From Chthoniobacteraceae bacterium (GTDB lineage: Bacteria; Verrucomicrobiota; Verrucomicrobiia; Chthoniobacterales; Chthoniobacteraceae), in assembly GCA_947476255.1 (NCBI GenBank), contig CANJPY010000019.1, positions 1 through 58,959 on the forward strand: a stretch of 58,959 bases of DNA, given 5' to 3'. Position 1 is the stretch's first letter, and the number at the start of each line of letters is the position of its first letter. The position numbers and the translations under genes were made by a program. Under the pieces are notes generated by a model. That model was not told where the DNA came from. It made no database searches and saw only the letters and a list, made by a program, of their open reading frames with translations. This document shows positions 4,151-42,271 of the stretch, piece after piece.

Positions 4151-6637
4151 CTACTTCATCTGAAACACATCGCTCTCCACCACGGCATAAACGATGGACC
4201 GAAGGCCGTACCGATCCTTGGCTGCGGCATTGACGATTGCCTCGATTGCAGGCTCATCGATGGGCCCCACGGGCTCTCCCGTGGCGTAGGTAAGAAGGTG
4301 TCGTGCGACTCCTTTTGCCAGTTGGGCGGGATTCTGTGCTATGAACTGCCGGAGTTCATTGATACCGCTAAAAACCCGCCCATCTGGCGTTTTACCTGCG
4401 GAATCCACAGTCAGACCTTCCATCCATCCTGGACCCTTGCGCTGGTTTGCGGGCAGCTTAATGACCTCGGGGTTAGGCATGCGAAAGGTGGTGCGAAATG
4501 CGCCGATCACGTCGAAGCTTTCGAGGGCGAAGCCGTACGGGTCAAACTTAGCGTGGCAGGCCTGGCAGGAACCTTTACTGCTATGCAGGGCCAGTTGTTC
4601 ACGTAAGGTTTTGGCACCGCGGATGTCTGGTTCAATGGAGCCTGCGGTTGGCGGCGGAGGCGGGATCTTAACTCCCAGAAGACGTTCCGCCATCCACACG
4701 CCTCGTTTGACAGGCGAGGTGTTTGTACCGTTGGCCGTGACCTTCATCGTGGCCGGTTGCGTCCACACTCCACCAAAGGGTGTGTTTGGTGGCAGGTTTA
4801 CAGACCGGAGCGTAAACCCTTCGCATGTTGGGAATCCGTAGTGACGGGCAAGACGCTCGTTGATAAAACCCCACTTGGGCGCAACAAAGTCGACAACGCT
4901 TAGGTTCTCCGCAAGCATGCGGCGGAATGTGGCATGGGTTTCATGGAGGCTCGAGTACCGGAGTAATTCGTCGTATTCAGGATAAACGTCCTTGTCTGGT
5001 GTTGTGTTCTCGATGCCCCAAATTCCGAGCCATTGATCGGGGAAGTCCTTGATAAAACGCTCGGCTCTCGCGTCCTTAAGCATACGGTCTGTTTGTGTGC
5101 GAAGGCTCCGCGGGTCGCTAAGTTTGCGCTGGCGCGCGAGGGCGAGTAATTCTTCGTCAGGGGTGGAGCTCCACAGGAAATAGGAAAGCCGGGCAGCCAG
5201 TGCGAACTCATTCAGGCGCCCTGGTTGTTCGATGATGGCGAGGCTGTCGGGAGCCGTAAGCATCTTTGTGATCTCCTCTTTGAAGATGGAAAGAGGAAGG
5301 TCACCTGCTTCGAGACGCTGGAGAAAGTTCTGTACAGGACGACTGACCTCCGCGTCGGAAAGGTCGCGCCGGAATAAACGAGCACCGACTCGGCGGAACG
5401 TCTTGTCCAAGACAGTGCGAAGCTCGTTTTGATCCACAGCTGCAAAAACTTTTTTGACTTCCGACGGCTGTGCGTGCAAGAGGCGCCTTTCCTTTTCCGA
5501 AAAATCTGCGGTCAAGAAACGATAACCCGCTAGCGGTAATTCAGGCTCGATCACATCCACCCATTGGACTGCAAGGCCAGGCCCTTTGCAGTTGCTTGCG
5601 AGAGTGTTTTTCGGCACGGGAACGCCCAGCCCAAGCGGAACAAGACGAAAGGAATCCGCCACCGGAGCCTGGTCGTTATCGGGAGCGGTCCTGAAGTAAA
5701 CTTCGGTTTCAATCACGGTGGGCTTGCCGGGCTGTGCCTCAAGAATGTCGACAAGGTTCACAAGCTGTGGATACGCACCGGTGTGGCCGGCCCAGATTGC
5801 AAAAGGCAGTGGTTTGTCTGTCTGGTAACCGTACACAGAAATACGCAGCTTGTGGACGCCAGGCACTCGAACGGAGTTTCCTGCAAAGGACCCGTCCTCC
5901 CTTTTTTGCGCCAGCGGGCCAGAGGTTAAGTCGGAGTTAAAAGAGACTTTGGTGTCGTCGGGTAACTCGAGAATGTTACCTTTGGATTGCTCGCTGGGTC
6001 GCGCCCAAAGCCGCACCGTCCCATTGGTTTTAGGGTCCGCTGCTTTTGGCGCGGTGAAAATGGTGTTGAGCGTTTCCTCGGCAGTTTTTACAAAGCCCTC
6101 GGTGCCGGATACAGAAAACGGCAGGGCAGCACTCACTTTGTCGTACCCGTCGACGCGACCGTCTTGCGGCAGGAATCGATTTACCGCGGGCCGGACACCG
6201 AACAGGTCGAGCATGGTGTTGGCGTACTCACTGCGAGAGAGGCGGCGCAGATGGCTGCGTCCTTCGCGTTGCCTTTCGCTGACAAGCTCCGGGGTAAGCG
6301 AGCCGCGTACCCATTTGATGAGCTCTTGGCGTTGCGATTGCGAGAGCACGTCCTCCCCCTCGGGCGGCATCGCGCCGGACTCGATCTGCTCAAGCATGCG
6401 ATACCACAAGTCGGCATTGGCCTTTAATTGGTTCGTAGATCCGGCTGCGGTGAAGTTGACATTCGCCTTTTGTTTTCTGTCGCCATGGCATTCGGTGCAG
6501 TGACTTTTGAGAATCGGTAAAACTTCCTTTTCAAAAGATTTAGTGGAATCGGGCGCTTGTCCATTTGGGACCGCGCGGAGCGTGGATACGGCGGTAAGGC
6601 CGAGAACGGCACTAGTAAGCAATTGCGTGGCTTTCAT
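4151..6637 (-). CDS. secreted DUF1592-family cytochrome-like protein
   Basis: An 828-residue exported protein of the family that carries DUF1587, DUF1595, DUF1592, DUF1588 and DUF1585 modules, widespread in Planctomycetota and Verrucomicrobiota and of unknown biochemical role. A signal peptide (MKATQLLTSAVLGLTA) precedes a c-type haem motif CTECH at residues 47-51, in a context typical of planctomycete cytochrome C domains. A second CxxCH (CQACH, followed by FDPYGFALE) lies about 160 residues from the C-terminus. Typical family blocks such as LSRSEYANTMLDLFG and ARLSYFLWSS are present. I used ATG 6637; a GTG at 6643 is the alternative. It lies downstream of the DUF1552 gene, with 9 bases between that stop codon and this ATG, so the two are cotranscribed. 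The order is the reverse of the cassettes at 21-25 kb and 54-58 kb, and there is no HMA-like gene. Confidence 0.88.
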   Translation of the reverse strand: MKATQLLTSAVLGLTAVSTLRAVPNGQAPDSTKSFEKEVLPILKSHCTECHGDRKQKANVNFTAAGSTNQLKANADLWYRMLEQIESGAMPPEGEDVLSQSQRQELIKWVRGSLTPELVSERQREGRSHLRRLSRSEYANTMLDLFGVRPAVNRFLPQDGRVDGYDKVSAALPFSVSGTEGFVKTAEETLNTIFTAPKAADPKTNGTVRLWARPSEQSKGNILELPDDTKVSFNSDLTSGPLAQKREDGSFAGNSVRVPGVHKLRISVYGYQTDKPLPFAIWAGHTGAYPQLVNLVDILEAQPGKPTVIETEVYFRTAPDNDQAPVADSFRLVPLGLGVPVPKNTLASNCKGPGLAVQWVDVIEPELPLAGYRFLTADFSEKERRLLHAQPSEVKKVFAAVDQNELRTVLDKTFRRVGARLFRRDLSDAEVSRPVQNFLQRLEAGDLPLSIFKEEITKMLTAPDSLAIIEQPGRLNEFALAARLSYFLWSSTPDEELLALARQRKLSDPRSLRTQTDRMLKDARAERFIKDFPDQWLGIWGIENTTPDKDVYPEYDELLRYSSLHETHATFRRMLAENLSVVDFVAPKWGFINERLARHYGFPTCEGFTLRSVNLPPNTPFGGVWTQPATMKVTANGTNTSPVKRGVWMAERLLGVKIPPPPPTAGSIEPDIRGAKTLREQLALHSSKGSCQACHAKFDPYGFALESFDVIGAFRTTFRMPNPEVIKLPANQRKGPGWMEGLTVDSAGKTPDGRVFSGINELRQFIAQNPAQLAKGVARHLLTYATGEPVGPIDEPAIEAIVNAAAKDRYGLRSIVYAVVESDVFQMK

Positions 6638-6646
6638 GGGCACTGA

Positions 6647-7912
6647 TTAGACAAGTCCATCGATGGGGCCTTCACCCGAACCAAATTTCTCAGTTTCAAC
6701 ACCAAAGCGCTGCAGCATGTTTACGAAAAGCTTGGCTAGAGGAGTGTTGTTCTTCACGTCGCCGGCGATGTGCCGACCGTGCTTGTAGCCGCCACCTGCA
6801 AGCAGTATCGGAAGATTGCTTGTCCCATGGCCGCTGGCGTCACCTAGGTTGCTGCCGATGAGCACCTGTGTGCTATCAAGCAGGCTGCGCCCCCCTTCCG
6901 ACGTGTCCTTCAAGCTAATCAAGAGATCGCGAAACGCCTTCATTTTGACAGTCTCAATGATCTTGAGCTTCTCGATTTTTTCAGGACTCCTGCCGTGGTG
7001 AGTGATATCGTGGTGGCCCTGATTGATGCCGTCGATTGGCGGCGTTGCATCCGAGCCTTTGATATAGATGCTCACAACACGGGTCGAATCCGTTTGCACC
7101 GCGAGCTTTGCCAACTGGAACATGATCCGAGCCCTGCCGATGGAGTCCGCCGGATTCAGGAAAGGACTGCCGTAGGGTTGTGCGGTGAGTTCAGCCGGAG
7201 CGGGCTCGCTCAACGTGGGTTTCGGCCGATCAATCCATTTCTCCTCAGCAACAAGTTGCTTTTCCATATCTCTCACCGCCTCGGTGTAATCGCTGATCTG
7301 TTGCTGGTCGTAGCGACTCAGTGTCCTGCTTAGCTCGCCGAGGCGCTCCTTCATGTGATCGAGGATGCTGTGCCCACGACGCAAGCGATCGAGTTCCTTG
7401 GTGACATCGGCCTTGCTGCCGGCAATGAACAGGTTCGCGTAGATCTGTGAGGGAAGAGTCAACGCCGGGATGTCCGCACCCGTGACCGTGTGAGAAAGAG
7501 GGCTTCCGTTTTGTGTGCTCAGCGACAGGAGCGGGAAGCGGGTTGCTCCAGCGACATGCTGCGAAGCAACGACATCGAGCGACACCGTGTTGCGAAAGCC
7601 GGGCTTCGTAGGGCGCTTGGCGCTCGTCAGGAAACAAGCCGCAGAGGCATGATCGCCTCCAATGTCGGGATGCGAAATGCCGGAGAAAACGGTGAACTTG
7701 CTGCGCAGATCTTCCAGAATGCGTAAGTACTCGCTTGGCTCGTAGTCCATTCCCGCGCTGGTTGGAAAAAACGAGGGACCATAAATTCCGAAGTCCGTGC
7801 AAACATGGATCAAGCGCTTTGGCGGTTCGGCTGAGTTGCCTTTGGCAAAAGTTTCGAGCCAGGGAAGGGCAAGAAGCGCGGAACTGGAGCGTAGGAATTG
7901 ACGGCGGTTCAT
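6647..7912 (-). CDS. DUF1552-family Tat-exported protein
   Basis: A 421-residue member of the DUF1552 family, normally found beside DUF1592 proteins. It begins with a twin-arginine signal (MNRRQFLRSSSALLALPWLE) that implies folded export, perhaps with a cofactor. Family hallmarks seen are the DFGIYGPSFFP block after the signal, SGISHPDIGGDHASA near 85, a central coiled segment YTEAVRDMEKQL, and GSNLGDASGHGTSNLPILLAGGG near the C-terminus. An in-frame ATG at 7975 would add 21 residues that do not look like part of the signal, so 7912 is preferred. First gene of a two-gene minus-strand operon with the DUF1592 protein. The molecular function is unknown; the fold is probably related to the alkaline phosphatase/sulfatase-like DUF1501 group (inference). 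Confidence 0.87.
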   Translation of the reverse strand: MNRRQFLRSSSALLALPWLETFAKGNSAEPPKRLIHVCTDFGIYGPSFFPTSAGMDYEPSEYLRILEDLRSKFTVFSGISHPDIGGDHASAACFLTSAKRPTKPGFRNTVSLDVVASQHVAGATRFPLLSLSTQNGSPLSHTVTGADIPALTLPSQIYANLFIAGSKADVTKELDRLRRGHSILDHMKERLGELSRTLSRYDQQQISDYTEAVRDMEKQLVAEEKWIDRPKPTLSEPAPAELTAQPYGSPFLNPADSIGRARIMFQLAKLAVQTDSTRVVSIYIKGSDATPPIDGINQGHHDITHHGRSPEKIEKLKIIETVKMKAFRDLLISLKDTSEGGRSLLDSTQVLIGSNLGDASGHGTSNLPILLAGGGYKHGRHIAGDVKNNTPLAKLFVNMLQRFGVETEKFGSGEGPIDGLV

Positions 7913-8319
7913 GGAGGTGGATGGAAAAACGCAATCCTGCATCGAAAACGGTGATTTGTCATGTGACGGAATCACGTCACGGGCAAAAGCACCCTTTTAT
8001 CGTGGAAAGAAGATGTTACCGGATTGCTGCACCGGGAGGCTTAGCCCCAGTGTCTTCTCCAGTTCGGCAGAATACAAAGAGACTTTCCTGTGGGGAGCGC
8101 ACACTTGGGCAAGCCCAAGATAAACGTTGATCGCTGGACTCGGAATCCCAAGGGATTCAGAGCGTCCCTAGGGCCAGATTCTGTCCACCGCAGTACAGAG
8201 AAACCTCCGCGGCACGCAAATGCTTTAGTCGCAGGGTAAATGAGTTTACTTTCTTGAAGATAAATAAAACGGGCCAAAAGCAGTATCGCTCGTGTATTGC
8301 TTCCTCCGTCCTTCACCCC
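7913..8319. other. divergent intergenic region
   Basis: About 400 bases between the minus-strand DUF1552 gene and the plus-strand isomerase gene. It holds an operator-like palindrome at 7963-7980. No coding potential was found and no clear promoter hexamers could be chosen. Confidence 0.5.
7963..7980. promoter_or_regulatory. operator-like palindrome upstream of DUF1552 gene
   Basis: GTGACG (7963-7968) and CGTCAC (7975-7980) form a perfect 6-bp inverted repeat with a 6-base spacer, 51 bases upstream of the DUF1552 start on the minus strand. The shape fits a dimeric regulator site; no particular regulator can be named. Confidence 0.35.
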
Positions 8320-17895: not shown

Positions 17896-18777
17896 ATGAA
17901 AACGACCCTCTTTCTTGCTGTGGCACTTCTCGCCATGGCCGTGACTCGGCTGCCCGCTGCGGACAGTCTTAACCCTCAAAACCCCGACAGAAACGTTCAG
18001 GCAGGTGTCCCAGAAGGTAAAATCACGAACGGCATCTTTGCTGAAAGCCAGATTTTCCCGGGCACTAAGCGCGACTACAGTGTGTATGTTCCAGCCCAGT
18101 ACACGCCTGATAAACCCGCTGCGCTGATGGTTTTTATGGACGGCGGCGGCTATGCCAAAAAGGACGGTGCTTTCCGCGTTCCCATTGTTTTCGACAACCT
18201 CATCCAACAAAAAGCAATGCCAGTCACCATCGGCGTGTTCGTTTCCCCGGGAACCATACCGGCCACGAGGGCTGGTGCCAAAGACCGCAGCAACCGTTCC
18301 TTTGAATACGATTCGTTGGGCGATCGCTACGCCAAGTTTCTTACCGACGAATTCCTCCCAGTCGCACTCAAGGGACTCAATATTTCCAAAGAACCCCAAC
18401 AACGCGCGGTTTGTGGCATCTCCTCCGGCGGGATCTGTGCCTTTACCGTGGCCTGGGAGCGGCCCGAGCAATTTGGAAAAGTCCTTAGCCATATTGGCAG
18501 CTTCACCAACATTCGTGGCGGGTGGGCCTACCCCGGCTTGGTTCGCAAATCCAAACCAGCTCCCAAACCCATCAAGGTGTATCTCCAAGAGGGCAAGGAT
18601 GACCTCGACAATCTCTTCGGCAACTGGCCCTTGGGAAATGAAGATTTGGTGGCCGCGCTCAAATTCGCCGGTTACGAGCACCACTTTGTCATGACCGATG
18701 GCGGGCACAGCGGCAACTGGGGCGGCGACCAACTCCCAAAGGCCCTCCGCTGGCTTTGGTCCGACCAGATCAAGTAA
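17896..18777 (+). CDS. secreted esterase of the Fes/XynZ family
   Basis: A 293-residue alpha/beta hydrolase of the putative esterase family (enterochelin esterase/feruloyl esterase type). A signal peptide (MKTTLFLAVALLAMAV, cleavage near AAD) precedes SVYVPAQY and FMDGGGY. The nucleophile is Ser176 in GISSG. Acidic residues in EGKDDLDN and a His in DGGHSGNWGG complete a likely triad. The 48 bases to the next gene suggest cotranscription with the closely related esterase-SMP30 fusion. The substrate is probably an acylated polysaccharide (inference). A long antisense frame over this gene is a shadow. Confidence 0.88.
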   Translation: MKTTLFLAVALLAMAVTRLPAADSLNPQNPDRNVQAGVPEGKITNGIFAESQIFPGTKRDYSVYVPAQYTPDKPAALMVFMDGGGYAKKDGAFRVPIVFDNLIQQKAMPVTIGVFVSPGTIPATRAGAKDRSNRSFEYDSLGDRYAKFLTDEFLPVALKGLNISKEPQQRAVCGISSGGICAFTVAWERPEQFGKVLSHIGSFTNIRGGWAYPGLVRKSKPAPKPIKVYLQEGKDDLDNLFGNWPLGNEDLVAALKFAGYEHHFVMTDGGHSGNWGGDQLPKALRWLWSDQIK

Positions 18778-18825
18778 CTGTCCGCTCACACTCCATAGGA
18801 AAACGTCCCCCTGCTTTTCTCGTAC

Positions 18826-20601
18826 ATGAAACTTTTGAACTCCTCCCTTTTGTTAGCGCTCTGTTTCTCCAGTTTGTCGCTGTCTGCCCAACAAGCGCCT
18901 CCGGCTTGGCAACCCCATCCTGACGCCATCGAACGTCAGGACGTCCCTCATGGTACCGTTGAAGATTTAGCTCCGTGGGAATCCAAGATTTTTGAAAACA
19001 CCACCCGCGAATGGTCCATTTACGTTCCTGCTCAATATAAAAAGGAAACGCCCGCGGCGCTCATGATTTTCCAAGACGGCAAGGGATATCGCGATACAAA
19101 GGGGCGCTGGCGCGTGCCTGTTGTGTTCGACAATCTCATCGCGCGCGGGGATATGCCTGTCACCATCGCGGTTTTTATCAACCCCGGTAATTTCAAACCT
19201 GAACCCGGCGCACCAACAGTCCCGAACGCCAAGCCGCGCTCCAACCGCAGCTTTGAGTACGACAGCCTTGGTGACCGTTATGCCCGGTTTGTGCTCGAGG
19301 AAATTCTCCCTGAAGTTGAAACACGTTACAACATCTCGAAAGACCCTGACCAGCGCGCCATCTGCGGAGCCAGTTCCGGTGGCATCTGTGCCTTCACAGT
19401 CGCTTGGGAGCGGCCCGATTCTTTTAGGAAAGTGCTGTCGACAATCGGAAGTTTCACCAACATCCGAGGGGGCAATGTTTATCCCTCGTTGATTCGTAAA
19501 ACAGAACAAAAACCGCTGCGCGTGTTTCTCGCCGACACCAGTGGAGACGTGGACAACCAGTTTGGCAGCTGGCCCTTGGCAAACAAACTGATTGCGGCCG
19601 CTCTGAAGCACATGGGCTACGACACCCGCTTTGAATGGGCCGAAGGTTTCGCCCACAGCAGCGATCATGGCGGGGCTCTCTTTCCAGATGCAGTGAAATG
19701 GCTCTGGCGCAAAGAAGCCCATCAATTCATCGCCGACACCAAGGGCCCTCTCAAAGGTGATATGACCCTCTTGCGGCAACTCATCCCCGGGGAAACATGG
19801 CAGGTCGTGGCAGATAATCTCGGGTTTGCGGACGCTCCATGCCCTGACGCTCAGGGGAACTTTTATTTCTGCGATATGAAGGCGCCCGCTGTCTACAAAG
19901 TGAGTGCGACGGACGGAAAACGCTCGGAGCTTGTGAAGGAATCTGTGAGTGGTTTGAAGTTCGGCCCCGATGGACTTCTCTATGGCTGTCAGGGATCCCA
20001 AAGCAGGGTCATTTCGATCGACCCGCAATCTGGAGCGGTGAAGGAAATCGCGACGGGAGTCAAACCCAACGATCTCGCAGTAAGTTCAGATGGTTTTATT
20101 TACATTACAGAAACGGGCCAGAAAAAAATCACCCGCATCCAGATTAAGTCGGGCGAGGCAGTGACGGCAGACACCGGCATAGAGGGCCCCAACGGCATTG
20201 TACTCTCGGGAGATGGCGGCACGCTCGCGGTTTCAGATTACAAAGGCGAACATGTCTGGACATTTCGCGTAAATGCAGACGCCTCTCTCGACGCAAAAAT
20301 GCCAACGATGACCTTGCGCCTGCCGATCGATCCAAAAGGTGAATTCAAGTCGGCAGAACCACCTCCTTATCAAAGCGCATCAAAGGGGGATGGCATGGCG
20401 ACGGATAAATCCTCGCGCTACTACGTGACGTCAGCGCTTGGCATCCAGATTTTTGATCCCACTGGACGTCACTGCGGCGTGCTTGCGAAACCGAATGAAG
20501 CGAAACCTCTCACCAGTTGCACGCTAGCGGGCCCGAATCACGAGTATCTCTATGTGACCAACGGTGACACAGTCTTCCGCCGCAAAATCAAAGTGGATTG
20601 A
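18826..20601 (+). CDS. secreted esterase fused to SMP-30/gluconolactonase-like propeller
   Basis: A 591-residue two-domain exported protein. A signal peptide (MKLLNSSLLLALCFSSLSLSAQ) is followed by an esterase domain (about 30-300) that is strongly similar to the preceding gene product, with nucleophile Ser183 in GASSG and the shared strings RSFEYDSLGDRYA and CAFTVAWERP. From about residue 325 to the end is a six-bladed SMP-30/gluconolactonase-type propeller (FADAPCPDAQGNFYFCDM, KFGPDGLLYGC, GPNGIVLSGDG). The fusion suggests an ester and a lactone handled by one polypeptide, or a propeller used for binding. Likely a duplicate of 17896-18777 that gained a second domain, or the reverse. Confidence 0.88.
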   Translation: MKLLNSSLLLALCFSSLSLSAQQAPPAWQPHPDAIERQDVPHGTVEDLAPWESKIFENTTREWSIYVPAQYKKETPAALMIFQDGKGYRDTKGRWRVPVVFDNLIARGDMPVTIAVFINPGNFKPEPGAPTVPNAKPRSNRSFEYDSLGDRYARFVLEEILPEVETRYNISKDPDQRAICGASSGGICAFTVAWERPDSFRKVLSTIGSFTNIRGGNVYPSLIRKTEQKPLRVFLADTSGDVDNQFGSWPLANKLIAAALKHMGYDTRFEWAEGFAHSSDHGGALFPDAVKWLWRKEAHQFIADTKGPLKGDMTLLRQLIPGETWQVVADNLGFADAPCPDAQGNFYFCDMKAPAVYKVSATDGKRSELVKESVSGLKFGPDGLLYGCQGSQSRVISIDPQSGAVKEIATGVKPNDLAVSSDGFIYITETGQKKITRIQIKSGEAVTADTGIEGPNGIVLSGDGGTLAVSDYKGEHVWTFRVNADASLDAKMPTMTLRLPIDPKGEFKSAEPPPYQSASKGDGMATDKSSRYYVTSALGIQIFDPTGRHCGVLAKPNEAKPLTSCTLAGPNHEYLYVTNGDTVFRRKIKVD

Positions 20602-21082: not shown

Positions 21083-23680
21083 ATGCTATTAACGCAGGTT
21101 TTGTTGTTTGTTCTGCTTTTAAAATTTACCGCTCATGCAAATGTGACGCCCTTTCTGGAGCAGCATTGTGTGAAATGCCACGATGCAGACACACGGAAGG
21201 GCAATTTGGATCTGACGACATTGAAGGCAGAATATTTGGATCCCGAAAACTTTGCGCGGTGGGTGAAGGTTCATGACCGCATCCAGTCCGGCGAGATGCC
21301 GCCCAAAAAAGAGAAGCGGCCCTTAGCGGAGGACGTAAAAGTGGTGGCACTCTCCCTTTCGAAGGCGCTTATGGATGGGGAGCGTGTGCAGTTGGAGCAG
21401 AAGGGCCGGATCGGGATGCGGCGCATGACACGGGCTGAGTACGAGAATACGTTGCGCGATCTTTTCGATATGCCAGGCATGGCGCTGCAGGCACTTCTGC
21501 CCGCTGACGGCACGGCACACGGGTTCGACAAAAACAGCGACGCCCTTGAGGTTTCGCATGTTAACATTTCGAAGTATGTCGAGGCGGCAGATCTCGCGCT
21601 TGATCTGGCCATTGCAACGAGACCTAAGGCTCCGGCTTCACAGAAGTTGCGCCTGAGCCTGCTCAACCGAGGAGGCCAGGGAGCGTCTCTTTCCATGCAA
21701 GGTGATGTGGTGCTGCTGCGAGATCAAAAAGCCGATCCCGCCTATCCGCCAGCAAGCGCTCACAGGCATCTCGACCAGGGAGCGCACGAACGTATTGGAA
21801 GTTTTGAAACGGAGAGTTCCGTGGGCGTCTTCCGGCGCGAGGACGAATCCGTCAACTACTACTTCCGAGGTCACACGACGATTTACCCTGGCCGCTATCG
21901 GGTGCGCACGTCGCTGTGGTCGTTCCAGTGGGATAAAGGGCAGGTGCTACCCTCCCGCGGGACGGAAGCGGCGAGAATTGCAGCGGTTCAACTGACCTCC
22001 GACGGACGAGGAGGCCAGCATCCAAATTACACGTTCGATTATTTTGACGCGCCCTCGTTAACGCCTACCGAGCACCGATTGGAGGTGTGGTTGAATCATA
22101 ACGAGTTGATCGGGTTTGACGTGGCGTCGCTGGCGCCCGTGGCCAACTACAGTCGCAAAGACAAAGCCATGGGTTTCACGGGACCGGGTATCGCGGTCGA
22201 CTGGTTGGAGATCGAGGGACCAGTCAACAGCGTGTGGCCGCCCCAAGCGCATCAACTTCTTTTTGGCAATCTGCCGATAGAGGAGTTTGTGGCAAAGGAC
22301 CATCCTGAGGTTCGCCCGCCGCCGCGCAAGAACTGGGAGAAAACATGGCTTCGTGTGTCCAAAAACATACCTGACCCAGTGACGGGCATTTGGACTGTAA
22401 GAAGCGAGAATCCCCGCGCTGACGCGGAGCGTTTGCTGGCGGGGTTTTTGCCCAAAGCTTTCCGCAGAGCTGTGGAAGCTGAGACCATCGGCGCGTATCT
22501 CAAGATTTTTGAGGCGCGCATCCAAGGTGGCGACTGCTTTGAATCGGCGTTACGCGAAGCCTACCGTTCTGCGCTGTGTTCACCTGATTTCTTATATCAC
22601 ATTGAACCCGATACAAAACTCTCGCAGAGCGCGCTGGCCTGCCGTCTGAGCTACTTTCTCTGGAACTCCGCACCAGATGAAGAACTGGCCTCAGCAAATC
22701 TCCATAACGCAGGTATCTTAAGAACACAAACCGAGCGTCTCCTGCGCGACCCAAAAGCGCAACGTTTCGTGGAAGACTTTCTTGGCCAGTGGCTTAAGCT
22801 GCGTCTGATCGCGGCGAATGATCCCGACAAAAAGCTTTACCCCGAATTCAGCCCGTATTTGCAGGACAGCATGGTTGCGGAGTCGCGCGCCTACTTCCGC
22901 GAACTGATTGAAAAGAATCTGAATGTCGCGCATCTGGTGAAATCGAATTTTGCCATGCTCAACCAAAAGCTTGCTGCGCACTATGGCGTCGAGGGTGTCA
23001 ACGGCTCAAAAACGCGGCGTGTGGAATTGCCTTCCGATTGTCCGCGCGGCGGTTTTCTAACGCAGGCAGCCATCTTGAAAGTGACGGCCAACGGGACGAC
23101 CACATCCCCTGTTGTGAGGGGCGCTTTTGTTCTGGACCGTATTCTGGGACAACCTCCGGAGCCACCTCCCAGCAACGTGCCTGCCGTCGAACCCGATGTG
23201 CGCGGAACCACGACAATCCGTGAGCAACTCGCCCAGCATCGCGACAACGCCACGTGCTCGAGCTGTCATGCCAAGATAGATCCGCCCGGGTTTGCGCTTG
23301 AGTCCTTTGATGTCATTGGGGGCCAGCGCGACCGTTACCGTCTCGTCGCAGAGTCCACCGGAGATCCAGCGCCTCGGGGCAACATTGATCCTTTCATTGG
23401 CATCAGTTTTAAGCTCGGTCCAAAGGTTGATCCGTCAGGCGAAACAACCGGAGGAGAGAAGTTTGCTGATATCCGTGATATGCAGCGTTATTTGGCGTCA
23501 AAGCCTGACTTGCTGCTGCGTTCACTGGCGCAAAGCCTAATCTCTTACAGCACCGGTCGCGAAGTCCGCTTCAGCGATCGGCCCGCGCTCAGAGAGGTGC
23601 TTGAAAAAACCGGTCCGACAAACGGAGTGAGAACTTTGATCCACGAGATCATTCAGAGCCCATTCTTCCAGACACGATGA
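21083..23680 (+). CDS. secreted DUF1592-family cytochrome-like protein, cassette copy 1
   Basis: An 865-residue exported protein with the DUF1587/1595/1592/1588/1585 architecture. The signal is MLLTQVLLFVLLLKFTAHA; a c-type haem motif CVKCH follows at 29-33 with the typical DADTRKGNLDL tail, and a second CSSCH (followed by AKIDPPGFALESFDVIGG) lies in the C-terminal part. Family blocks MTRAEYENTLRDLFD, CRLSYFLWNS and FLGQWLKLR are present. Start ATG 21083 is chosen from the promoter position and the signal peptide. The last codons overlap the HMA-like gene by 4 bases (ATGA), implying coupled translation. It is close in sequence to the 54625-57261 protein (shared FDKNSDALE/DIS, SFWSFQWDKG-like and NRR-type strings). 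The role is unknown; haem-based electron transfer is inferred from CxxCH. Confidence 0.9.
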   Translation: MLLTQVLLFVLLLKFTAHANVTPFLEQHCVKCHDADTRKGNLDLTTLKAEYLDPENFARWVKVHDRIQSGEMPPKKEKRPLAEDVKVVALSLSKALMDGERVQLEQKGRIGMRRMTRAEYENTLRDLFDMPGMALQALLPADGTAHGFDKNSDALEVSHVNISKYVEAADLALDLAIATRPKAPASQKLRLSLLNRGGQGASLSMQGDVVLLRDQKADPAYPPASAHRHLDQGAHERIGSFETESSVGVFRREDESVNYYFRGHTTIYPGRYRVRTSLWSFQWDKGQVLPSRGTEAARIAAVQLTSDGRGGQHPNYTFDYFDAPSLTPTEHRLEVWLNHNELIGFDVASLAPVANYSRKDKAMGFTGPGIAVDWLEIEGPVNSVWPPQAHQLLFGNLPIEEFVAKDHPEVRPPPRKNWEKTWLRVSKNIPDPVTGIWTVRSENPRADAERLLAGFLPKAFRRAVEAETIGAYLKIFEARIQGGDCFESALREAYRSALCSPDFLYHIEPDTKLSQSALACRLSYFLWNSAPDEELASANLHNAGILRTQTERLLRDPKAQRFVEDFLGQWLKLRLIAANDPDKKLYPEFSPYLQDSMVAESRAYFRELIEKNLNVAHLVKSNFAMLNQKLAAHYGVEGVNGSKTRRVELPSDCPRGGFLTQAAILKVTANGTTTSPVVRGAFVLDRILGQPPEPPPSNVPAVEPDVRGTTTIREQLAQHRDNATCSSCHAKIDPPGFALESFDVIGGQRDRYRLVAESTGDPAPRGNIDPFIGISFKLGPKVDPSGETTGGEKFADIRDMQRYLASKPDLLLRSLAQSLISYSTGREVRFSDRPALREVLEKTGPTNGVRTLIHEIIQSPFFQTR

Positions 23681-24240
23681 TGAAGCCACTTTTTCTTTTG
23701 TTCGCTTTCTCTTTTTCGGCCATCGCGGCCGAGCAGACGGTGGAATATGCCGTCCGCGGACTTTTTCAACCAGACCGGAAAACAGTGCTCAGCAGTGCCG
23801 CCAAGACCCTGCAAAACTGCCGGCTTGTCGAGGTCAGTTATGAGAAGGCTACTGCCACATTTGCCTACGATGATGAGGCGCAGGGATTCAAAAAGGCAAA
23901 GCCTGAGCAGGTTCTCCAGCAAATCGACAATCAGATCCGAAATCTGACGGGCAGCACATTTTCGATTGTGCCGCAGAGTACTCTCGGGGAGGACAAACTC
24001 GAGCGCATTGATTTTATGGTCGAGGGACTCGACTGCCTCGGATGTTCTTATGGCCTGTATGTGACTGTCGAGAAGCTCCAAGGCGTCGAGCGGGCCTATG
24101 CCAGCTTTCACGATGGGCGACTCGCTGTATTTATCGACCCCACGAAAACAAACCGTGAAGCACTCGCGGAGGTTTTAAAAAAAAGAGAGATCAAGGTCGT
24201 AGAAAACTCGGCCAAGGAAGAAACCAAACCCAAAAACTGA
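23677..24240 (+). CDS. small secreted protein with two HMA-like folds, cassette copy 1
   Basis: A 187-residue exported protein that I do not recognise as a named family. A signal peptide (MMKPLFLLFAFSFSAIAA) is followed by two regions that read like heavy-metal-associated (HMA, ferredoxin-like) domains. The first (about 21-68) has the beta-alpha-beta spacing but no cysteine pair. The second (about 112-180) has GLDCLGC with Cys120 and Cys123 at the place of the HMA CxxC, then KLQGVERAYASF and KTNREALAEVLKK as in HMA strand/helix 2. It overlaps the DUF1592 gene by 4 bases and ends 4 bases before the DUF1552 gene, so it is tightly bound to both. A role as metal (copper-type) or redox partner of the haem protein is inference. 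Paralogues lie at 42271 and 57270. Confidence 0.8.
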   Translation: MMKPLFLLFAFSFSAIAAEQTVEYAVRGLFQPDRKTVLSSAAKTLQNCRLVEVSYEKATATFAYDDEAQGFKKAKPEQVLQQIDNQIRNLTGSTFSIVPQSTLGEDKLERIDFMVEGLDCLGCSYGLYVTVEKLQGVERAYASFHDGRLAVFIDPTKTNREALAEVLKKREIKVVENSAKEETKPKN

Positions 24241-24244
24241 AGCC

Positions 24245-25492
24245 ATGTATATTCCAATCACTCCTCTTAATCGCCGCACCTTCCTGCGCGGAACTGGTGT
24301 CGCTCTTGCACTGCCGTTTCTTGAGGCCATGCAGCCAGTCTTTGGCGCTCAAGCAGCAGCGGGTATTCCTCGCCGTATGGTGTGCATCCAGACGAACATG
24401 GGGATCCTTCCGCAGTTCTTTTTTCCGGAGGAGACGGGGCGCGATTTCGCACTCAGTCCTTATTTGGACCGTCTGAAGGCGCATCGTGATCAGATCACGG
24501 TTTTTTCAGGAGTCAGTTATCCGGGAGTGGATGGTGGACATACTGCGCAAAAGTGTTTTTTGACTGGAACACCGCATCCCGCGCGCGGGGGCTTCCGGAA
24601 TGGAATCTCCCTTGACCAGTTCGCAGCGGAAGAGATTGGCAATCAGACGCGTTATCCTTCGCTTGTGCTCGCCGTCACCAATGAAAACGCGACGATGAGT
24701 TTTACGCGAAACGGTTCTTCGATTCCTTCCGAACAAAGCCCGAAGAAGCTATTTGAGCGCCTTTTTATTCAGGGAAACACCAAGGATGTGGCTGCCAATC
24801 TTGAGGCGCTCCAGCGTGGTCGCAGTCTGATGGATTTCGTGAGCGACCAATCGAAGAGTCTGGGAAAAAAGCTTTCGAAAAACGATCAGAGCAGACTGGA
24901 CCAATACTACACGGCAGTGCGTGAGCTTGAGCAGCGCCTGCACAGTGCCGAGGACTGGGAGCACAAGCCCAAGCCCGCTGTCGCCTCCAAGGCACCGGAC
25001 GAGATCACTGATGCCAAAGAATTCGTCCGCCGGACCGAGCAGACATTTGACGTGATGAAGCTCGCCCTGGAGACCGACAGTACGAGGGTCGTATCCCTCT
25101 TCATAGACACAACGGTCATTCACAATATCACCCACCACGGTAATCGTCCCGAAGTGCTCGGTGAATTACGCGGCCACGAAGAACGCCAGTTTGATGCGTT
25201 CAACGGCTTTTTGAGCGCGCTCCGTAATACGAAAGAACAAGACGCTTCCCTTCTGGATCGCACTCAAGTTCTTTACGGGACGTGCATGGGTAGCGCGAAT
25301 TCCCACAGCAACGTAAACCTGCCCGTTCTGCTTGCCGGAGGCGGTTTCAAGCATGGCCAGCACCTTGCCTTTGACAAGGCAAACAACTACCCACTCACGA
25401 ACTTGCACGTTTCGATGCTCCAGCGCATTGGTGTGGAAGCCAGTGAGTTTTCGACCGGGAAGAATACGATGAAAGGGTTGGAGATGATTTGA
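24245..25492 (+). CDS. DUF1552-family Tat-exported protein, cassette copy 1
   Basis: A 415-residue DUF1552 protein, third gene of the intact cassette. Twin-arginine signal with NRRTFLRGTGVALALPFLE at residues 9-27. Conserved blocks: PRRMVCIQTNMGILPQFFFP, SGVSYPGVDGGHTAQKCFLTG, GFRNGISLDQFAAE, a long Glu/Arg-rich helix YYTAVRELEQRLH, DTTVIHNITHHGNRPE, and MGSANSHSNVNLPVLLAGGG. It is intact and closely related to 42846-44102 and to the pseudogene at 57836. The function is unknown. Its partners suggest action with a secreted c-type haem protein. Confidence 0.9.
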   Translation: MYIPITPLNRRTFLRGTGVALALPFLEAMQPVFGAQAAAGIPRRMVCIQTNMGILPQFFFPEETGRDFALSPYLDRLKAHRDQITVFSGVSYPGVDGGHTAQKCFLTGTPHPARGGFRNGISLDQFAAEEIGNQTRYPSLVLAVTNENATMSFTRNGSSIPSEQSPKKLFERLFIQGNTKDVAANLEALQRGRSLMDFVSDQSKSLGKKLSKNDQSRLDQYYTAVRELEQRLHSAEDWEHKPKPAVASKAPDEITDAKEFVRRTEQTFDVMKLALETDSTRVVSLFIDTTVIHNITHHGNRPEVLGELRGHEERQFDAFNGFLSALRNTKEQDASLLDRTQVLYGTCMGSANSHSNVNLPVLLAGGGFKHGQHLAFDKANNYPLTNLHVSMLQRIGVEASEFSTGKNTMKGLEMI

Positions 25493-35292: not shown

Positions 35293-36759
35293 TCACGCGA
35301 GAATTTCGCGGATCACGTGTCCATGCACATCCGTGAGTCGCCGCTGCACGCCGTTGTTGTAGTACGTGAGTCTCTCGTGGTCGAGACCGAGCAGATGCAG
35401 CGCTGTTGCATGAATGTCGTAGCAGTACGTTGGATGTTCGACGGCTTTGCTCCCCAGTTCGTCCGTGCTTCCGTAGGCGCAGCCACCTTTCACACCACCG
35501 CCGGCCATCCACACGGTAAAGGCATCAGGATTGTGGTCACGGCCTTTTCCAGAGCCCTGGGCCGCAGGTTGTCGGCCGAATTCCGAGGTGCAAATCACCA
35601 GCGTACTCTCGAGCAACCCATGGGAGCGCAGGTCTGCAAGCAGAGCCGCTGCGCCTCCATCGAGAACAGCTCCCCAATAGCCGTGGTCGCGGACCACGTC
35701 CTCGTGACTGTCCCAGTTTGGCCGGACCTTCTTGGCCACCGTATTTTCCGCGCCGCAGAAAATTTGGACAAAGCGCACCCCCCGCTGCACGAGTCTCCGC
35801 GCCAGCAGGCATTGTCTTCCGAAAGGACCAATGTCCTCGTCGTCGATATTGTAGAGCTTTTTCGTCGCGGCTGTTTCGCCACTTAAATCGGTGGTTTCCG
35901 GGGCGCTGAGTTGAAGGCGGGCGGCTAACTCATAAGCCGAGATGCGCGCTTCGAGCTCACTGTTTTCAGGACGCGCCGCTGCATGAGCGCGGTTGAGTTG
36001 TTGCAGAAACATGCGGCTTTGAATTTCCCGTTCGCCCCGAAGGTCTGGGTACTCACTGGAAGGAAACAAGTCTGCAATGGGGGTCTGGCCAGAGCTTTGA
36101 ATCGTCGTTCCTTGGTGGACGGCGGGCAAAAATCCAGCGCCCCAATTGATGGCTCCGCCCGGCGGGAGACCTCGCGGATCAGGAAGGACCACAAACGCGG
36201 GTAAATTCTCACACTCACTGCCCAGTCCGTAAGTCACCCATGAACCCATGCTGGGGAAGCCTGGAAGGACAAAACCACTGTTGGCCATAAACATGGCGGG
36301 ACCATGCAATGCGCTCTTGCTTTTCATGGAATGGATGAAGGCCATCTCATCGACCTCGCCGGCTAGGCGAGGCAGGAGATCGCTCATCCAGCGTCCGGAC
36401 TGACCAAACTGTTTAAACGGCCACCAACTTCCCTGGCAGTTTCCTGGCTTTGAAGCAAAGAACTGCATTTTACCGTCTGGATCAAAGGGCTTTCCAGTGC
36501 GCCGGAGCAATTCAGGTTTATAGTCCCATGTATCGACGTGGCTGAGCGCGCCGGAACAAAAAATCTGAATCACGGCTTTTGCCTTAGCTGCGTGATGGCC
36601 GGATTTTGGGGCAAGTGGATTCAACGCATCCTTTGCGGGGGCCTCGTTTAAAAGGGCGGCTAAAGCGACACCCCCGATACCGCCCGCCGCGTGTTCCAGA
36701 AAGCTGCGGCGTGAATGGATGGCCCTACTATTAGTTGGCTGCAGTGGAAGGGTGATCAT
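35293..36759 (-). CDS. DUF1501-family Tat-exported protein
   Basis: A 488-residue protein of the DUF1501 family, which has an alkaline phosphatase/sulfatase-like fold and unknown activity. A Tat-type signal (SRRSFLEHAAGGIGG at 17-31) precedes the family blocks SHVDTWDYKPEL, FKQFGQSGRWMSDLLP, SALHGPAMFMANSGFVLPGFPSMG, TSEFGRQPAAQGSGKGRDHNP, and YCYDIHATALHLLGLDHERLTY. Its start lies 1 base after the stop of the DUF1549/DUF1553 gene, so the two form an operon. This pairing is the standard arrangement in Planctomycetota and Verrucomicrobiota. Confidence 0.92.
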   Translation of the reverse strand: MITLPLQPTNSRAIHSRRSFLEHAAGGIGGVALAALLNEAPAKDALNPLAPKSGHHAAKAKAVIQIFCSGALSHVDTWDYKPELLRRTGKPFDPDGKMQFFASKPGNCQGSWWPFKQFGQSGRWMSDLLPRLAGEVDEMAFIHSMKSKSALHGPAMFMANSGFVLPGFPSMGSWVTYGLGSECENLPAFVVLPDPRGLPPGGAINWGAGFLPAVHQGTTIQSSGQTPIADLFPSSEYPDLRGEREIQSRMFLQQLNRAHAAARPENSELEARISAYELAARLQLSAPETTDLSGETAATKKLYNIDDEDIGPFGRQCLLARRLVQRGVRFVQIFCGAENTVAKKVRPNWDSHEDVVRDHGYWGAVLDGGAAALLADLRSHGLLESTLVICTSEFGRQPAAQGSGKGRDHNPDAFTVWMAGGGVKGGCAYGSTDELGSKAVEHPTYCYDIHATALHLLGLDHERLTYYNNGVQRRLTDVHGHVIREILA

Positions 36760-36760
36760 T

Positions 36761-39733
36761 TTAATCGAGATAGATGAACTCGTTCATGTTGAGAATCATC
36801 CGGCAGAAAACAAAAAGCCCTTGGGCAGTCACCAAGGCCTTGGACGCCTCAAGCTCGGAGGTTTCGGGATTCCTTTGGAAGGCGAGTTGAAATGCCCGCT
36901 TGATCGCTGGCTCGTGCCCAGGGTCTTCGCTCTCAATGCGAGTCGCGAACTGACGTGCTTGTTGGAGAACAAACTCGTTGTTGCTGAGGGAGAGGGCCTG
37001 CAATGCGGTCGTGGTCTGAACCCGCGCGGGCGTAAGATTGGCGGGGTCAGGACAATCCATAGTGCTCAGAAATTGATGGGGTGTTGTCCGGACGACAAAT
37101 CTGTAAATGCTGCGCTTCCTCAATTCCGGGGTATTCGGAGGTATATACTGGTAAATGGGGGCATAGGCCTCCTTGTATTCAAAATCTTTAAAGCCCGGTC
37201 CTCCCGCCTGGAGATTGAGCGTACCCGCGATGCGCAGCACATAGTCGCGCAATGCCTCCGCATCAAGGCGCCTGGGATTCTGCCGCCACAACAACCGGTT
37301 TGAAGAGTCTTTTTCGCGGGCGAGTGAATTGCCTTGATTGGAGCTCTGTCGGTAGGTCGCGCTTGTGACGATAAGCTTGTGCAGGAGCTTGATCGAGTAC
37401 CCTCCCTTGAGAAACTCCGTTGCGAGCCAGTCTAACAATTCGGGATGGGAGGGGCGGTCGCCTCCCAAGCCAAAGTCGCTTGGCGTGTTCACCAATCCCT
37501 GGCCGAAGTGGTGGTGCCAAAGCCGGTTCGAGATCACGCGCCAGGTCAAAGGATTATCTGGATGTGTAATCCATTGCGCTAGAGCGGCGCGACGCTTTCC
37601 TTCGGGCATTGAGTCGTCCCCAAAATCCGCAGGCATATGGGAGGCCCACCTGAAAGCACCTGGTGAGACGTGCGCACCTTCGTCCTCCGGATTACCCCGT
37701 CGCTGCACGCGCGTCGGTTTGGGCAGGGTGGTGCTGTTGAAAGCGTAAACCGCTGGATCCTCTTTGATTTCAGCCAGGGCTTTTTGCAATTCCTGGCTCT
37801 CCGCATTTAAAGAAGCATAGCGTTGCTGTGTTTGGGAGTCTTGTGAAACAGCAGCAGCACTCAAAAGCCGCGCGTCCCCAAGGAACAGTTGATCCATTCC
37901 GATGCCGTCACCGCCGTCGGTTGCAACGAATGTCAAAAACCGGACGGAGTCTGGGATTTCCAAGACTAAAAACAAGGACTCGGTCTTGGTCATCTTTTGC
38001 CGGTAGACCTTGCGCTCTGAGTCCAGATAAACGGAGAAATCAGCAAAGGAAGAGGGATCCACCTCTCTAGAACCAAAACCAATGGCCGTGGTCAGGCGGA
38101 GCGATCCCCATTGGTTTGCGCTGCGGATTGCATTTAAATCGAAGGTAATTCCGCTGTTGGATGAGAGGCCGAGAACAGAGTGTCCGCTTGTGAGGTAGTC
38201 AATATCGCCTACGCGCGCCTCGGGTTGTGCACTGACTTTTCCGTTTCGGATGCGGTCCCAAGACTGCCCGGAGGTGACAGGAAAATCTGTGATGACCACA
38301 TCTGCCGCCAACTGCAAACCTGAGACTTCCTTCGGATTCTTGGCGCCTTTTGGTAGAAAAACACCCTTAATAAAAGGCATTGGGGCGGCGCTGTTTTGGA
38401 ATATCGGCGGTCTTAAAATATTTGGGGTTTCGGTTTTGAGGAAACTTTGTGCACTGGTTCCGAAGGACCCTGTGACGACGTCGAGGCCGGCCTTGAGAGA
38501 TCCCGTACCAAGGCCGTTACCTCCCCCAACGATGTCTGCGAGATCGAGTCCTTTTCCAAGAAGGCCTGAAAGTTTGGCTTCTACCTTGGCAAGTTGTTGT
38601 TGGAGGCTTGTTCGCTCGATATCAATCACACGGTCGCCCCGGTTGACACCTGCAAACACAGCTTTGAGTGCGTAGTACTCGCGCTGGGTGATGGGATCCA
38701 ATTTATGGTCATGACAGCGTGCACAATTGATCGTGATGCCCATGGAAGCCGTGACAACCTGGGTAAGCATGTCATCGAGATCACCAGCGCGTGCCGAGCG
38801 TTTGAGGACAGCGCTTGTGGTTTCGACGTGGCCGACAAAATCCCAAGGCCCTGCGGCCAGAAAGCCCGTTGCGATGAGAGCAGATTCGTCGTTGGGCGAT
38901 AGCACATCTCCAGCGATTTGGTCCCGTAAGAATTGGTCATACGGCTTGTCCGTATTGAGAGCTGTGATCACGTAGTCGCGGTAGCGCCAAGCATTGGGGC
39001 GCAATTTGTCGCGTTCGAATCCGTGGGTGTCAGCGTAGTGGGCGATATCGAGCCAATGCCTCGCCCAACGCTCTCCGTAGTGGGGCGAAGCAAGGAGTAC
39101 GTCTACGAGTTTTTCATACGCTTTGGGATCCTGGTCCGCGATAAAAGACGCAACCTGCTCAGGGCTCGGAGGAAGCCCCAGCAAGTCAAAGCTCAGCCGC
39201 CGTATAAGTGTTCTTCGGTCAGCTTCGGGAGAGGGAGCTAAACCGTGCTTTGCGAGGCTTTCGCGCACCAATGAGTCGATAGAGGCGGTGGGTGGAAAAT
39301 TGCTTTTGAGCGGCTGCACCGACCAATGTTGCATGCGCTTGTCCTGCGTAGCCGCAAGATCGGCAGCGTTTTCGGGCCATTCTGCGCCGGTATCAATCCA
39401 TTGTTTAATCTTTGCGATCTCGCTTTGGGTGAGCGGTTCTCCCTGAGCCGGCATGCGCTCTTTTTCGTCTTGGGAGATAAGTCGGAGATAGATCGCGCTT
39501 TCATCTGCTTTGCCGGGTTGCAAGACCTGCCCGTTGACTCCTCCTTTGAGCGCAAAAGGTTTGGCGTCGAGGCGCAATTCACCCTTTTGCTTTTTTGGTC
39601 CATGGCACTCTACGCAGCGCTTATCGAAGAGGGGACGAATCTCGGTGTCGAAATCGAGTGCGCCATGGAGAGATGGCAGGAGAGATGAAACAAGACACCA
39701 GAATAGCCATGGGAGGCGTGTGTTGGTGAACAT
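36761..39733 (-). CDS. planctomycete-type cytochrome protein, DUF1549/DUF1553
   Basis: A 990-residue exported protein of the PSCyt1-PSCyt2-PSD1 type. Signal MFTNTRLPWLFWCLVSSLLPSLHG; haem motif CVECH at 40-44 with GPKKQKGELRLD; DUF1549 from about 145 to 360, containing ERWARHWLDIAHYAD and a second CxxCH (CARCHDHKLDPI); DUF1553 from about 700 to 960 (NPLTWRVISNRLWHHHFGQGLVNTPSDFG, LWRQNPRRLDAEALRDYVL). Between them sits an insert of roughly 300 residues with beta-rich sequence (LGLSSNSGITFDLNAIR, VRFLTFVATDGGDGIGMDQLFLGD) that may be an NPCBM-like carbohydrate-binding domain, then a helical linker. First gene of the operon with DUF1501. Confidence 0.92.
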   Translation of the reverse strand: MFTNTRLPWLFWCLVSSLLPSLHGALDFDTEIRPLFDKRCVECHGPKKQKGELRLDAKPFALKGGVNGQVLQPGKADESAIYLRLISQDEKERMPAQGEPLTQSEIAKIKQWIDTGAEWPENAADLAATQDKRMQHWSVQPLKSNFPPTASIDSLVRESLAKHGLAPSPEADRRTLIRRLSFDLLGLPPSPEQVASFIADQDPKAYEKLVDVLLASPHYGERWARHWLDIAHYADTHGFERDKLRPNAWRYRDYVITALNTDKPYDQFLRDQIAGDVLSPNDESALIATGFLAAGPWDFVGHVETTSAVLKRSARAGDLDDMLTQVVTASMGITINCARCHDHKLDPITQREYYALKAVFAGVNRGDRVIDIERTSLQQQLAKVEAKLSGLLGKGLDLADIVGGGNGLGTGSLKAGLDVVTGSFGTSAQSFLKTETPNILRPPIFQNSAAPMPFIKGVFLPKGAKNPKEVSGLQLAADVVITDFPVTSGQSWDRIRNGKVSAQPEARVGDIDYLTSGHSVLGLSSNSGITFDLNAIRSANQWGSLRLTTAIGFGSREVDPSSFADFSVYLDSERKVYRQKMTKTESLFLVLEIPDSVRFLTFVATDGGDGIGMDQLFLGDARLLSAAAVSQDSQTQQRYASLNAESQELQKALAEIKEDPAVYAFNSTTLPKPTRVQRRGNPEDEGAHVSPGAFRWASHMPADFGDDSMPEGKRRAALAQWITHPDNPLTWRVISNRLWHHHFGQGLVNTPSDFGLGGDRPSHPELLDWLATEFLKGGYSIKLLHKLIVTSATYRQSSNQGNSLAREKDSSNRLLWRQNPRRLDAEALRDYVLRIAGTLNLQAGGPGFKDFEYKEAYAPIYQYIPPNTPELRKRSIYRFVVRTTPHQFLSTMDCPDPANLTPARVQTTTALQALSLSNNEFVLQQARQFATRIESEDPGHEPAIKRAFQLAFQRNPETSELEASKALVTAQGLFVFCRMILNMNEFIYLD

Positions 39734-40185
39734 GGCAGGATAAACAGAGTTTGGGTTGGTATTAAGAATACACTGTGCCGTTGCTCGCGCACACGAGAGC
39801 TGGTGGATTACGTAGCTGCGTCTGAGTGCTTGTGCGGCACCGTTTATTGAAGGGAACTATGGATGGAGAATGGAGCGGGACGTGTGAATTGCGGACGAGA
39901 TGCGGGTACCGATACTCCTCATACTGGTCAGAGGTCATACCACTGGTCAAGCCGCGCGTTTTGGCCGCAGGGCGCTGAGGCTTCTGGTCTAGGGATGTTT
40001 TATCTCCGAGGCTCCATACTTTGGGAAAAATACGAGGAGAGGTGACCGGAAGAGATCACTCGATGGATCAAGCCGAGAATCAGGCGCAGACTGGGCTGGA
40101 TTTGGCATTAGCACAGCGGGTGACTCGCGATTAATTCGAGATTTGTGGTTAACCTTTGCCCAGTATGCGGCATTTACGGGTGAGC
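39734..40185. other. regulatory region upstream of sigma factor and DUF1549 operon
   Basis: About 450 bases between divergent units. It contains GTATT/AATAC (39759-39771, 3-base spacer) near the DUF1549 start and two copies of ACTGGTCA (39923-39930 and 39942-39949) whose starts lie 19 bases apart, about 240 bases before the sigma gene. No gene was recognised. Confidence 0.4.
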
Positions 40186-42101: not shown

Positions 42102-42271
42102 TCGCCCCACCCTTCCCAGCCTCCTGCCAGACTGCTTGCCGTTGCGGGCGCAGCACGAGGGGAGCTTCCGCGGCCCTCGCCGAAATCGTCGCGCGCACCA
42201 AGAAACAGGGGGGCGGCATCCGCACGCTGCTCCACCAGACCGTCGCCAGCCCATTCTTCCAGACCCGCTGA
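42088..42271 (+). pseudogene. DUF1592 gene remnant with internal deletion, copy A
   Basis: The first 80 or so bases after ATG 42088 align with the N-terminus of the intact DUF1592 gene at 54625 (both end in a GAGCTTCCGC string after LLP-rich signal sequence). The next bases jump straight to that protein's C-terminus: from about 42170 one frame reads SAALAEIVARTKKQGGG, then IRTLLHQ, ending in SPFFQTR and a TGA at 42269-42271. About 2.4 kb of coding sequence, including both haem motifs, is missing and the two ends are out of frame. The open frame from 42088 instead runs into the HMA-like gene, giving a chimeric ORF that I consider accidental. Confidence 0.85.

Follow-up and report, generated by a model that had tools for sequence, protein, structure and literature searches.

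The stretch of DNA analysed here, called the window below, is contig C19 (positions 1-58959, 58,959 nucleotides) of a 5.15-Mb draft genome of a Chthoniobacteraceae bacterium in 189 contigs. At 21083-25492 it holds three genes, encoding a DUF1592 protein, a small protein with two heavy-metal-associated (HMA) folds, here named HMA2, and a DUF1552 protein (Table 1). Open reading frame (ORF) analysis confirmed the spacing given in the initial annotation, a 4-base overlap between the first two genes followed by a 4-base gap, and Pfam confirmed the three families. In the DUF1592 protein Pfam placed the PSCyt and PSD domains in the order listed in Table 1. The two CxxCH haem motifs of this protein and the single CxxC of HMA2 are present as had been described. 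The DUF1552 protein matches the HXXSHH/DUF1552 model over its full length (E 3.3e-71), and its HxxSHH-type motif reads HNITHH. The signal peptides, Sec-like on the first two proteins and Tat-like (RRTFLRG) on the third, were judged by eye. This is the only cassette of the window in which all three genes are open and of full length.

The two HMA-like folds proposed for the middle protein were borne out. An AlphaFold2 model of HMA2, built from a 27-row alignment (pLDDT 89.5, pTM 0.79), consists of two ferredoxin-like units of the beta-alpha-beta-beta-alpha-beta type, and profile searches and Foldseek agree with it. In Foldseek the tandem HMA domains of CopA and ATP7B ranked top, and CopZ (6ff2) matched across one HMA2 domain with a TMt of 0.91. 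A profile of 27 relatives matched PDB chains with the HMA domains of copper ATPases, CopZ, MerP and zinc ATPases, including copper-transporting ATPase 2 (7xuk; E 3.8e-23, profile positions 19-166). The Pfam HMA model (PF00403) matches residues 113-169, which form domain 2, with E 2.6e-5 and 25.0 bits against a gathering cut-off of 24.8. Domain 2 carries the CxxC motif, DCLGC in the window protein. At the same position domain 1 has a conserved Pro-x-Arg (xPxR), and CxxC is absent there in the aligned copies, so that, judging by the model, domain 1 appears HMA-like by fold only.

The CxxC of domain 2 is found in 34 of 35 aligned rows, corresponding to 31 of 32 distinct copies once three copies that each occupy two rows are counted singly. 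A GTDB scan whose pattern required D[CW]xxC is the sole source of eleven of the 32, and a fair count leaves them out; of the 21 copies found without a cysteine-based search, 20 have the motif, and the one that lacks it is copy 3 of the window, with its broken DUF1552 gene. All 35 rows have Asp directly before the first CxxC position, where the copper ATPase HMA domains compared have Thr, His, Ser or Ala. Asp also precedes the CxxC of ZntA and ZiaA, two zinc ATPases, which keeps zinc a candidate alongside copper. A literature search on the Asp-Cys motif of HMA2 yielded nothing.

The view that an HMA gene generally accompanies DUF1592/DUF1552 pairs did not survive. By manual count the window's own genome has 37 DUF1552 genes (39 matches, from which a DUF1501-type gene below the cut-off and the extra fragment of copy 3 were subtracted), six of them with an HMA gene; none is in view beside the other 31, two of which (on C49 and C82) lie at contig ends. 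Evenly drawn samples of 288 Verrucomicrobiota and 294 Planctomycetota genomes, with the centre genomes counted, each contained two genomes in which both HMA2 domains were matched: the window's own and G217 among the former, the centre, G321, and G610 among the latter. In a further 47 Verrucomicrobiota genomes the match was confined to the C-terminal part of the profile, and in 3 further Planctomycetota genomes to domain 2. A universal middle gene was rejected on these counts. The neighbourhood analysis that the initial annotation had proposed thus refutes the general rule by its letter, the gene being absent in nearly all genomes, and reveals a gene that, in the genomes sampled, marks one clade in two phyla. 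DUF1552/DUF1592 pairs are heavily expanded in this genome, with 37 DUF1552 genes in 5.15 Mb.

The GTDB scan found 34 HMA2 loci in 30 assemblies, all of them titled as metagenome-assembled genomes. By manual count, 25 loci carry Verrucomicrobiota-type and 9 Planctomycetota-type names, and relatives found by protein similarity have titles such as Verrucomicrobiaceae, Chthoniobacter and Opitutae. The HMA match lies directly 3' of the DUF1592 match in 31 of the 34 loci; the others are L086 and L089, where HMA2 lies at contig ends, and L091, with DUF1552-HMA. A fixed gene order, as first supposed, is not seen: a manual tally gave 15 loci with DUF1592-HMA-DUF1552 and 12 with DUF1552-DUF1592-HMA. Two loci (L107, L108) have HMA2 fused to a formylglycine-generating enzyme (FGE)-sulfatase domain, and two (L084, L092) have DUF1592-HMA with no DUF1552 in view, the DUF1592 of L092 being a fragment. 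At L082 there is a second HMA copy, then DUF1501. Among 38 relatives, full-length HMA2 copies occur in G000, G290, G295, G297, G300 and G308; the copies of G300 and of L078 (G328) lie on matching contig numbers at near-identical coordinates. A scan of viral contigs found no relative.

Fusions of the same kind occur twice in the window's own genome, on contig C63 (L140:7211-8884 and L140:16719-18293). The FGE domain (PF03781) was confirmed by Pfam for the first of these and assigned by similarity in the other fusions. The order is DUF1552-DUF1592-HMA::FGE in L140 and L107, and L108 starts inside DUF1592. A sulfatase gene follows one of the two L140 copies. That the fused FGE domain is a copper-dependent formylglycine enzyme was considered and rejected; the fusion sequences do not show the cysteine pair of that enzyme.

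As far as sampled, the HMA gene marks one clade throughout. Among the 38 relatives, an HMA gene lies no more than 3 kb from each of the 11 full-length DUF1552 matches that reach 590 bits. The next full-length match scores 512 bits, and none of those listed at or below that score has an HMA gene within 3 kb, the nearest (G290:C129) being 8 kb off. HMA2 has an other-branch pair close by at L091 and, 1.2 kb away on the opposite strand, in G297 (L162); these pairs are too distant for the relatives' listing or outside that sample. In FastTree phylogenies, 35 HMA-linked DUF1552 rows, including L066 and L078, which are one locus, form one clade (support 0.894), as do 30 HMA-linked DUF1592 sequences (support 1.0); no member of the HMA-less sets, 29 DUF1552 and 29 DUF1592 sequences from the window's own genome, falls inside either. 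Pieces shorter than about 330 residues (DUF1552) or 600 residues (DUF1592) were left out. The HMA-linked label follows a 4-kb rule, by which one L091 gene per tree is so labelled, falls outside the clade and belongs to the neighbouring pair. HMA2 is a clade-specific tandem-HMA companion of this DUF1592/DUF1552 branch.

HMA2 adjoins DUF1592 whichever of the two gene orders a locus has, and this makes DUF1592 a likelier partner than DUF1552. In model numbering (residue 1 at 21131), His143, His213 and His219 are present in 30 of 30 DUF1592 members of the clade and His297, His315 and His490 in 29 of 30; the same six columns have His in 0 to 4 of 29 non-clade members. The DUF1592 model (pLDDT 76.6) contains a predicted jelly-roll with strands at about 171-365. 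Foldseek gave weak jelly-roll matches, among them carbohydrate-binding modules (CBMs) of families CBM4 and CBM6, and otherwise no convincing PDB match; in sequence searches of the PDB neither DUF1552 nor DUF1592 had a convincing relative. An HMA-linked soft-metal site in DUF1552 (Met47, Cys99, His106) was rejected, as the HMA-less L126 has all three residues, others have one or two, and there is no enrichment.

The initial annotation had proposed a metal or a thiol role for HMA2, and we likewise infer rather than observe one. With a probability of about one half, HMA2 is a dedicated exported metal-binding accessory of one DUF1592/DUF1552 branch that loads or buffers metal for DUF1592. Outside the cytoplasm, domain 2 would bind a single metal ion of soft or borderline character, Cu(I) or Zn(II), and the cysteine-free domain 1 may serve for docking. 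HMA2 would then load or buffer the metal for the adjacent DUF1592 protein, in which the branch-specific histidines are candidate ligands. DUF1592, with its two haems, is assumed to act in electron transfer or as an oxidoreductase together with DUF1552, and the substrates of the pair are probably of the polysaccharide type. A bolder form, in which the DUF1592 branch is an exported enzyme with haem and a second metal (Cu or Zn), the branch histidines forming the second-metal site and HMA2 acting as its own exported tandem-HMA metallochaperone docked by the cysteine-free domain, is tentative and on present evidence rather unlikely.

The accessory role draws support from the fold, the CxxC kept in domain 2, the position of the gene beside DUF1592, the single clade, the correlated distances of the three proteins and the branch-specific His of DUF1592. 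Several observations weigh against it. Domain 1 has no metal-binding motif. The excess of His in branch-specific columns of DUF1592 (7 of 110, vs 4 of 253 shared conserved columns; Fisher p 0.021) comes from one of eight tests and is uncorrected; His is not enriched in the branch-specific columns of DUF1552, and Cys, Met and pooled His+Cys+Met are enriched in the branch columns of neither protein. Because columns 213, 219 and 297 are gapped in many non-HMA DUF1592 proteins and lie near the jelly-roll segment, part of the His signal is a domain difference. The flanks were surveyed at 29 HMA2 loci (27 of the 34 GTDB loci, L110 and L140), which gave 120 ORFs of at least 150 residues; 108 were scanned, the 12 of L100 and L101 being left out as near copies, and families for copper or zinc transport are absent from the 25 commonest of their 116 families. 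The 31 DUF1552 genes of the window's own genome with no HMA gene in view count on the same side, as does the derivation of the HMA-less tree sets from that single genome. The correlation between pairwise distances of DUF1592, HMA2 and DUF1552 is strong (r 0.93-0.96, a value reached in 0 of 2000 permutations) in the 18 loci used, which had all three genes and did not include the window, L082, L091 or L140, but shared ancestry alone can produce such a result.

Of the other explanations the strongest, itself doubtful, is that the HMA2 folds act as an adaptor holding the DUF1592/DUF1552 complex, or an FGE-like domain, together, with metal binding secondary or absent. The lack of CxxC in domain 1 of the aligned copies would fit this, as would the HMA2::FGE-sulfatase fusions and the varying order of the partners around an HMA gene that adjoins DUF1592 at nearly every GTDB locus; the CxxC of domain 2, kept in all but one of the 21 fairly counted copies, goes beyond the needs of a pure scaffold. 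A thiol role, in which this CxxC acts on disulfides or maintains the CxxCH cysteines of DUF1592 in the reduced state for haem attachment, is improbable: the partner does have two c-type haem motifs and its gene directly adjoins HMA2, but the fold is that of HMA and not thioredoxin-like, and most other DUF1592 proteins of the same genome keep their CxxCH motifs without an HMA gene. Equally poor are the prospects of HMA2 as a MerP-like periplasmic metal-scavenging or resistance protein that is in the operon by chance. Its nearest NCBIfam models are indeed UxxU (NF041115, 48.9 bits, cut-off 95), MerTP/MerP (MerP 37.5 bits, cut-off 92.55) and CopZ, the curated cut-offs not being reached; however, the both-domain matches with an upstream neighbour in view adjoin DUF1592 or DUF1552, the gene is confined to one clade, and metal transport is not among the commonest flanking families. 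Neutral hitchhiking of an HMA gene gained once beside the branch, with no functional link, has very little in its favour, its overall rarity and the decayed copies in the window being set against its presence in two phyla and both gene orders, the conserved CxxC and the distances correlated with those of its partners.

Table 1. Cassette genes and neighbouring features of the window.
Feature	Position	Strand	Remarks
DUF1592 protein gene	21083-23680	+	865 aa; PSCyt1-PSD3-PSD5-PSD4-PSCyt3-PSD2; ORF and Pfam
Tandem HMA gene (HMA2)	23677-24240	+	187 aa; ORF, Pfam, profile, AlphaFold model and Foldseek
DUF1552 (HXXSHH) gene	24245-25492	+	415 aa; ORF and Pfam
Comparator pair, DUF1592 and DUF1552	4151-6643 and 6647-7975	-	Other branch; no HMA gene between
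Esterase (PF00756) gene, then esterase-SGL (gluconolactonase-like) fusion	17896-20601		Just 5' of the trio
DUF1549/DUF1553 (PSCyt2) and DUF1501 pair	35293-39733		No HMA gene in the pair; Pfam
Sigma factor gene	40156-40722	+	5' of tandem copies; Sigma70_r2, weak r4_2; extracytoplasmic function (ECF)-type by size and layout
FecR-domain protein gene	40719-42101	+	5' of tandem copies
Copy 2 DUF1592 remnants	42088-42270	+	Both gene ends, body gone; 3'-end match 42170-42265; 5' remnant by eye
Copy 2 HMA2 gene	42271-42813	+	In-frame TGA at 42742-42744
Copy 2 DUF1552 gene	42846-44102	+	Open
FecR gene tail remnant	54399-54632	+	Precedes copy 3
Copy 3 DUF1592 gene	54625-57261	+	Open; branch-specific His490 (model numbering) lost
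Copy 3 HMA2 gene	57270-57812	+	Open; Trp replaces first CxxC cysteine
Copy 3 DUF1552 gene	57821-58543	+	Frameshift near 58014; truncated

The same gene order had been reported in two further copies in the window. Traces of all three genes are present in both, and both are decayed, copy 2 retaining only remnants of DUF1592 and copy 3 a broken DUF1552, so that a description of the window as holding three intact copies was rejected. The two copies look like the decayed halves of a tandem duplication: a relative, G295 (L160), has the direct tandem DUF1592-HMA-DUF1552-DUF1592-HMA-partial DUF1552, and because the tandem is contiguous there, copies 2 and 3 are taken as one decayed tandem split by about 10 kb (44203-54313). 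This interval holds two very large genes, one with a NosD/beta-helix match and one with a pyrroloquinoline quinone (PQQ)-type propeller match. In 2-kb steps the GC content is 0.57-0.61 over 40001-58000, the part with the decayed copies, vs 0.515-0.572 over 4001-40000.

The single stop in HMA2 of copy 2 may be a sequencing error, the genome being a draft. Reading its TGA as selenocysteine was rejected: it lies well past the CxxC, the region is open in relatives, and the DUF1592 gene of this copy is gone. Copy 3 combines three defects, the broken DUF1552, the loss of a CxxC cysteine, the only such loss in 35 aligned rows, and the loss of His490, the only one among the 30 DUF1592 members of the clade; its HMA2 scores 18.3 bits with PF00403, under the cut-off. 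These defects fit a joint decay of the cassette, in one case.

The cassettes of L087 and L107 also have sigma factor and FecR genes nearby. For R. baltica, the part of the published account available here suggests an ECF factor as regulator of a PSC/PSD gene (PMC2754498). A promoter scan found no sigma-70 site, and terminators were at chance level. The commonest families among the 108 flanking ORFs are GHL10 (4) and SGL, sigma-70 region 2 and NHL (3 each). L093 and L095 have SGL genes close to DUF1552, and these ORFs include one further SGL match; an SGL and an alpha/beta-hydrolase-like gene flank the cassette in this one Verrucomicrobiaceae group. The esterase and SGL lactonase set was rejected as a constant part of the cassette: none of 74 loci (34 GTDB loci, 31 of the own genome outside the window's own match and 9 of relatives) was matched at E 1e-3 in tblastn with the window's esterase and esterase-SGL proteins, a search that found its positive control in the window and was too weak to detect the SGL genes of L093 and L095.

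DUF1552 and DUF1501 are related by profile comparison with hhalign over most of their length (98.1% probability, E 1.2e-13, 353 columns); a smaller alignment (A6) gave 95.5% over 116 columns near the C-terminus only. DUF1501 in turn had weak matches to sulfatase-type enzymes and lipoteichoic acid synthase (E 0.06 to 0.42; 37.5% probability), and direct comparison of DUF1552 with sulfatase gave 1.5% probability, with two sulfatase rows only. Because the first of these matches is weak and the direct comparison failed, membership of DUF1552 in the alkaline-phosphatase superfamily is only plausible. In the hhalign comparison of the two families (alignments A4 and A7), invariant His94 of DUF1552 falls within one residue of invariant His152 of DUF1501. 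By eye, His152 of DUF1501 is in register with the loop of the catalytic Cys of sulfatases.

The DUF1592/DUF1552 pair is common, exported and unexplained, and the HMA companion hints at the chemistry of this branch. If the branch does have a dedicated metal-binding companion, a biochemical handle is gained, namely a branch to purify, a cofactor class and a testable site, with the HMA-lacking branches of the same genome as a ready-made control.

The middle protein had been regarded as an undescribed partner, and no description of an HMA protein with DUF1592 or DUF1552 was found in searches of the open-licence PMC literature; the available parts of PMC8756737 and PMC7789669 contain nothing on this cassette. 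In freshwater Verrucomicrobia, according to the accessible portion of one study, PSCyt3/PSD genes lie beside an unnamed family (PMC5615132). Like the cassette, these genes combine PSCyt and PSD domains and have a conserved neighbour; some members carry CBM domains, and in some genomes sulfatase genes lie nearby. A difference is that the main text has no mention of HMA, heavy metal or copper. Within the window, the presence of both DUF1592 with DUF1552 and DUF1549/DUF1553 with DUF1501 indicates two parallel systems. Each pairs a haem-motif protein with a Tat-like partner, but the DUF1549/DUF1553 and DUF1501 pair has other haem-protein domains and no HMA gene. Cbp2D of Cellvibrio japonicus has an X183 cytochrome together with DUF1587, and isolated X183 reduces copper lytic polysaccharide monooxygenases, as stated in the part of PMC8981238 available here. 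The union of c-type cytochrome and DUF1587 in one protein is the likeness; in contrast to the cassette Cbp2D has CBM2 and a YceI-like domain, and that part of the source mentions no HMA protein. No Cbp2D-type chain was among the PDB matches of the window DUF1592 protein, the presence of its entry in the library being unchecked. CopZ, MerP, CopA and ATP7B share with HMA2 the ferredoxin-like fold and, in domain 2, the CxxC loop, and CopA and ATP7B also the tandem layout. HMA2 differs from this group as a stand-alone exported tandem with no pump attached and no CxxC in domain 1, and from all the copper ATPase domains compared in its Asp before the first Cys.

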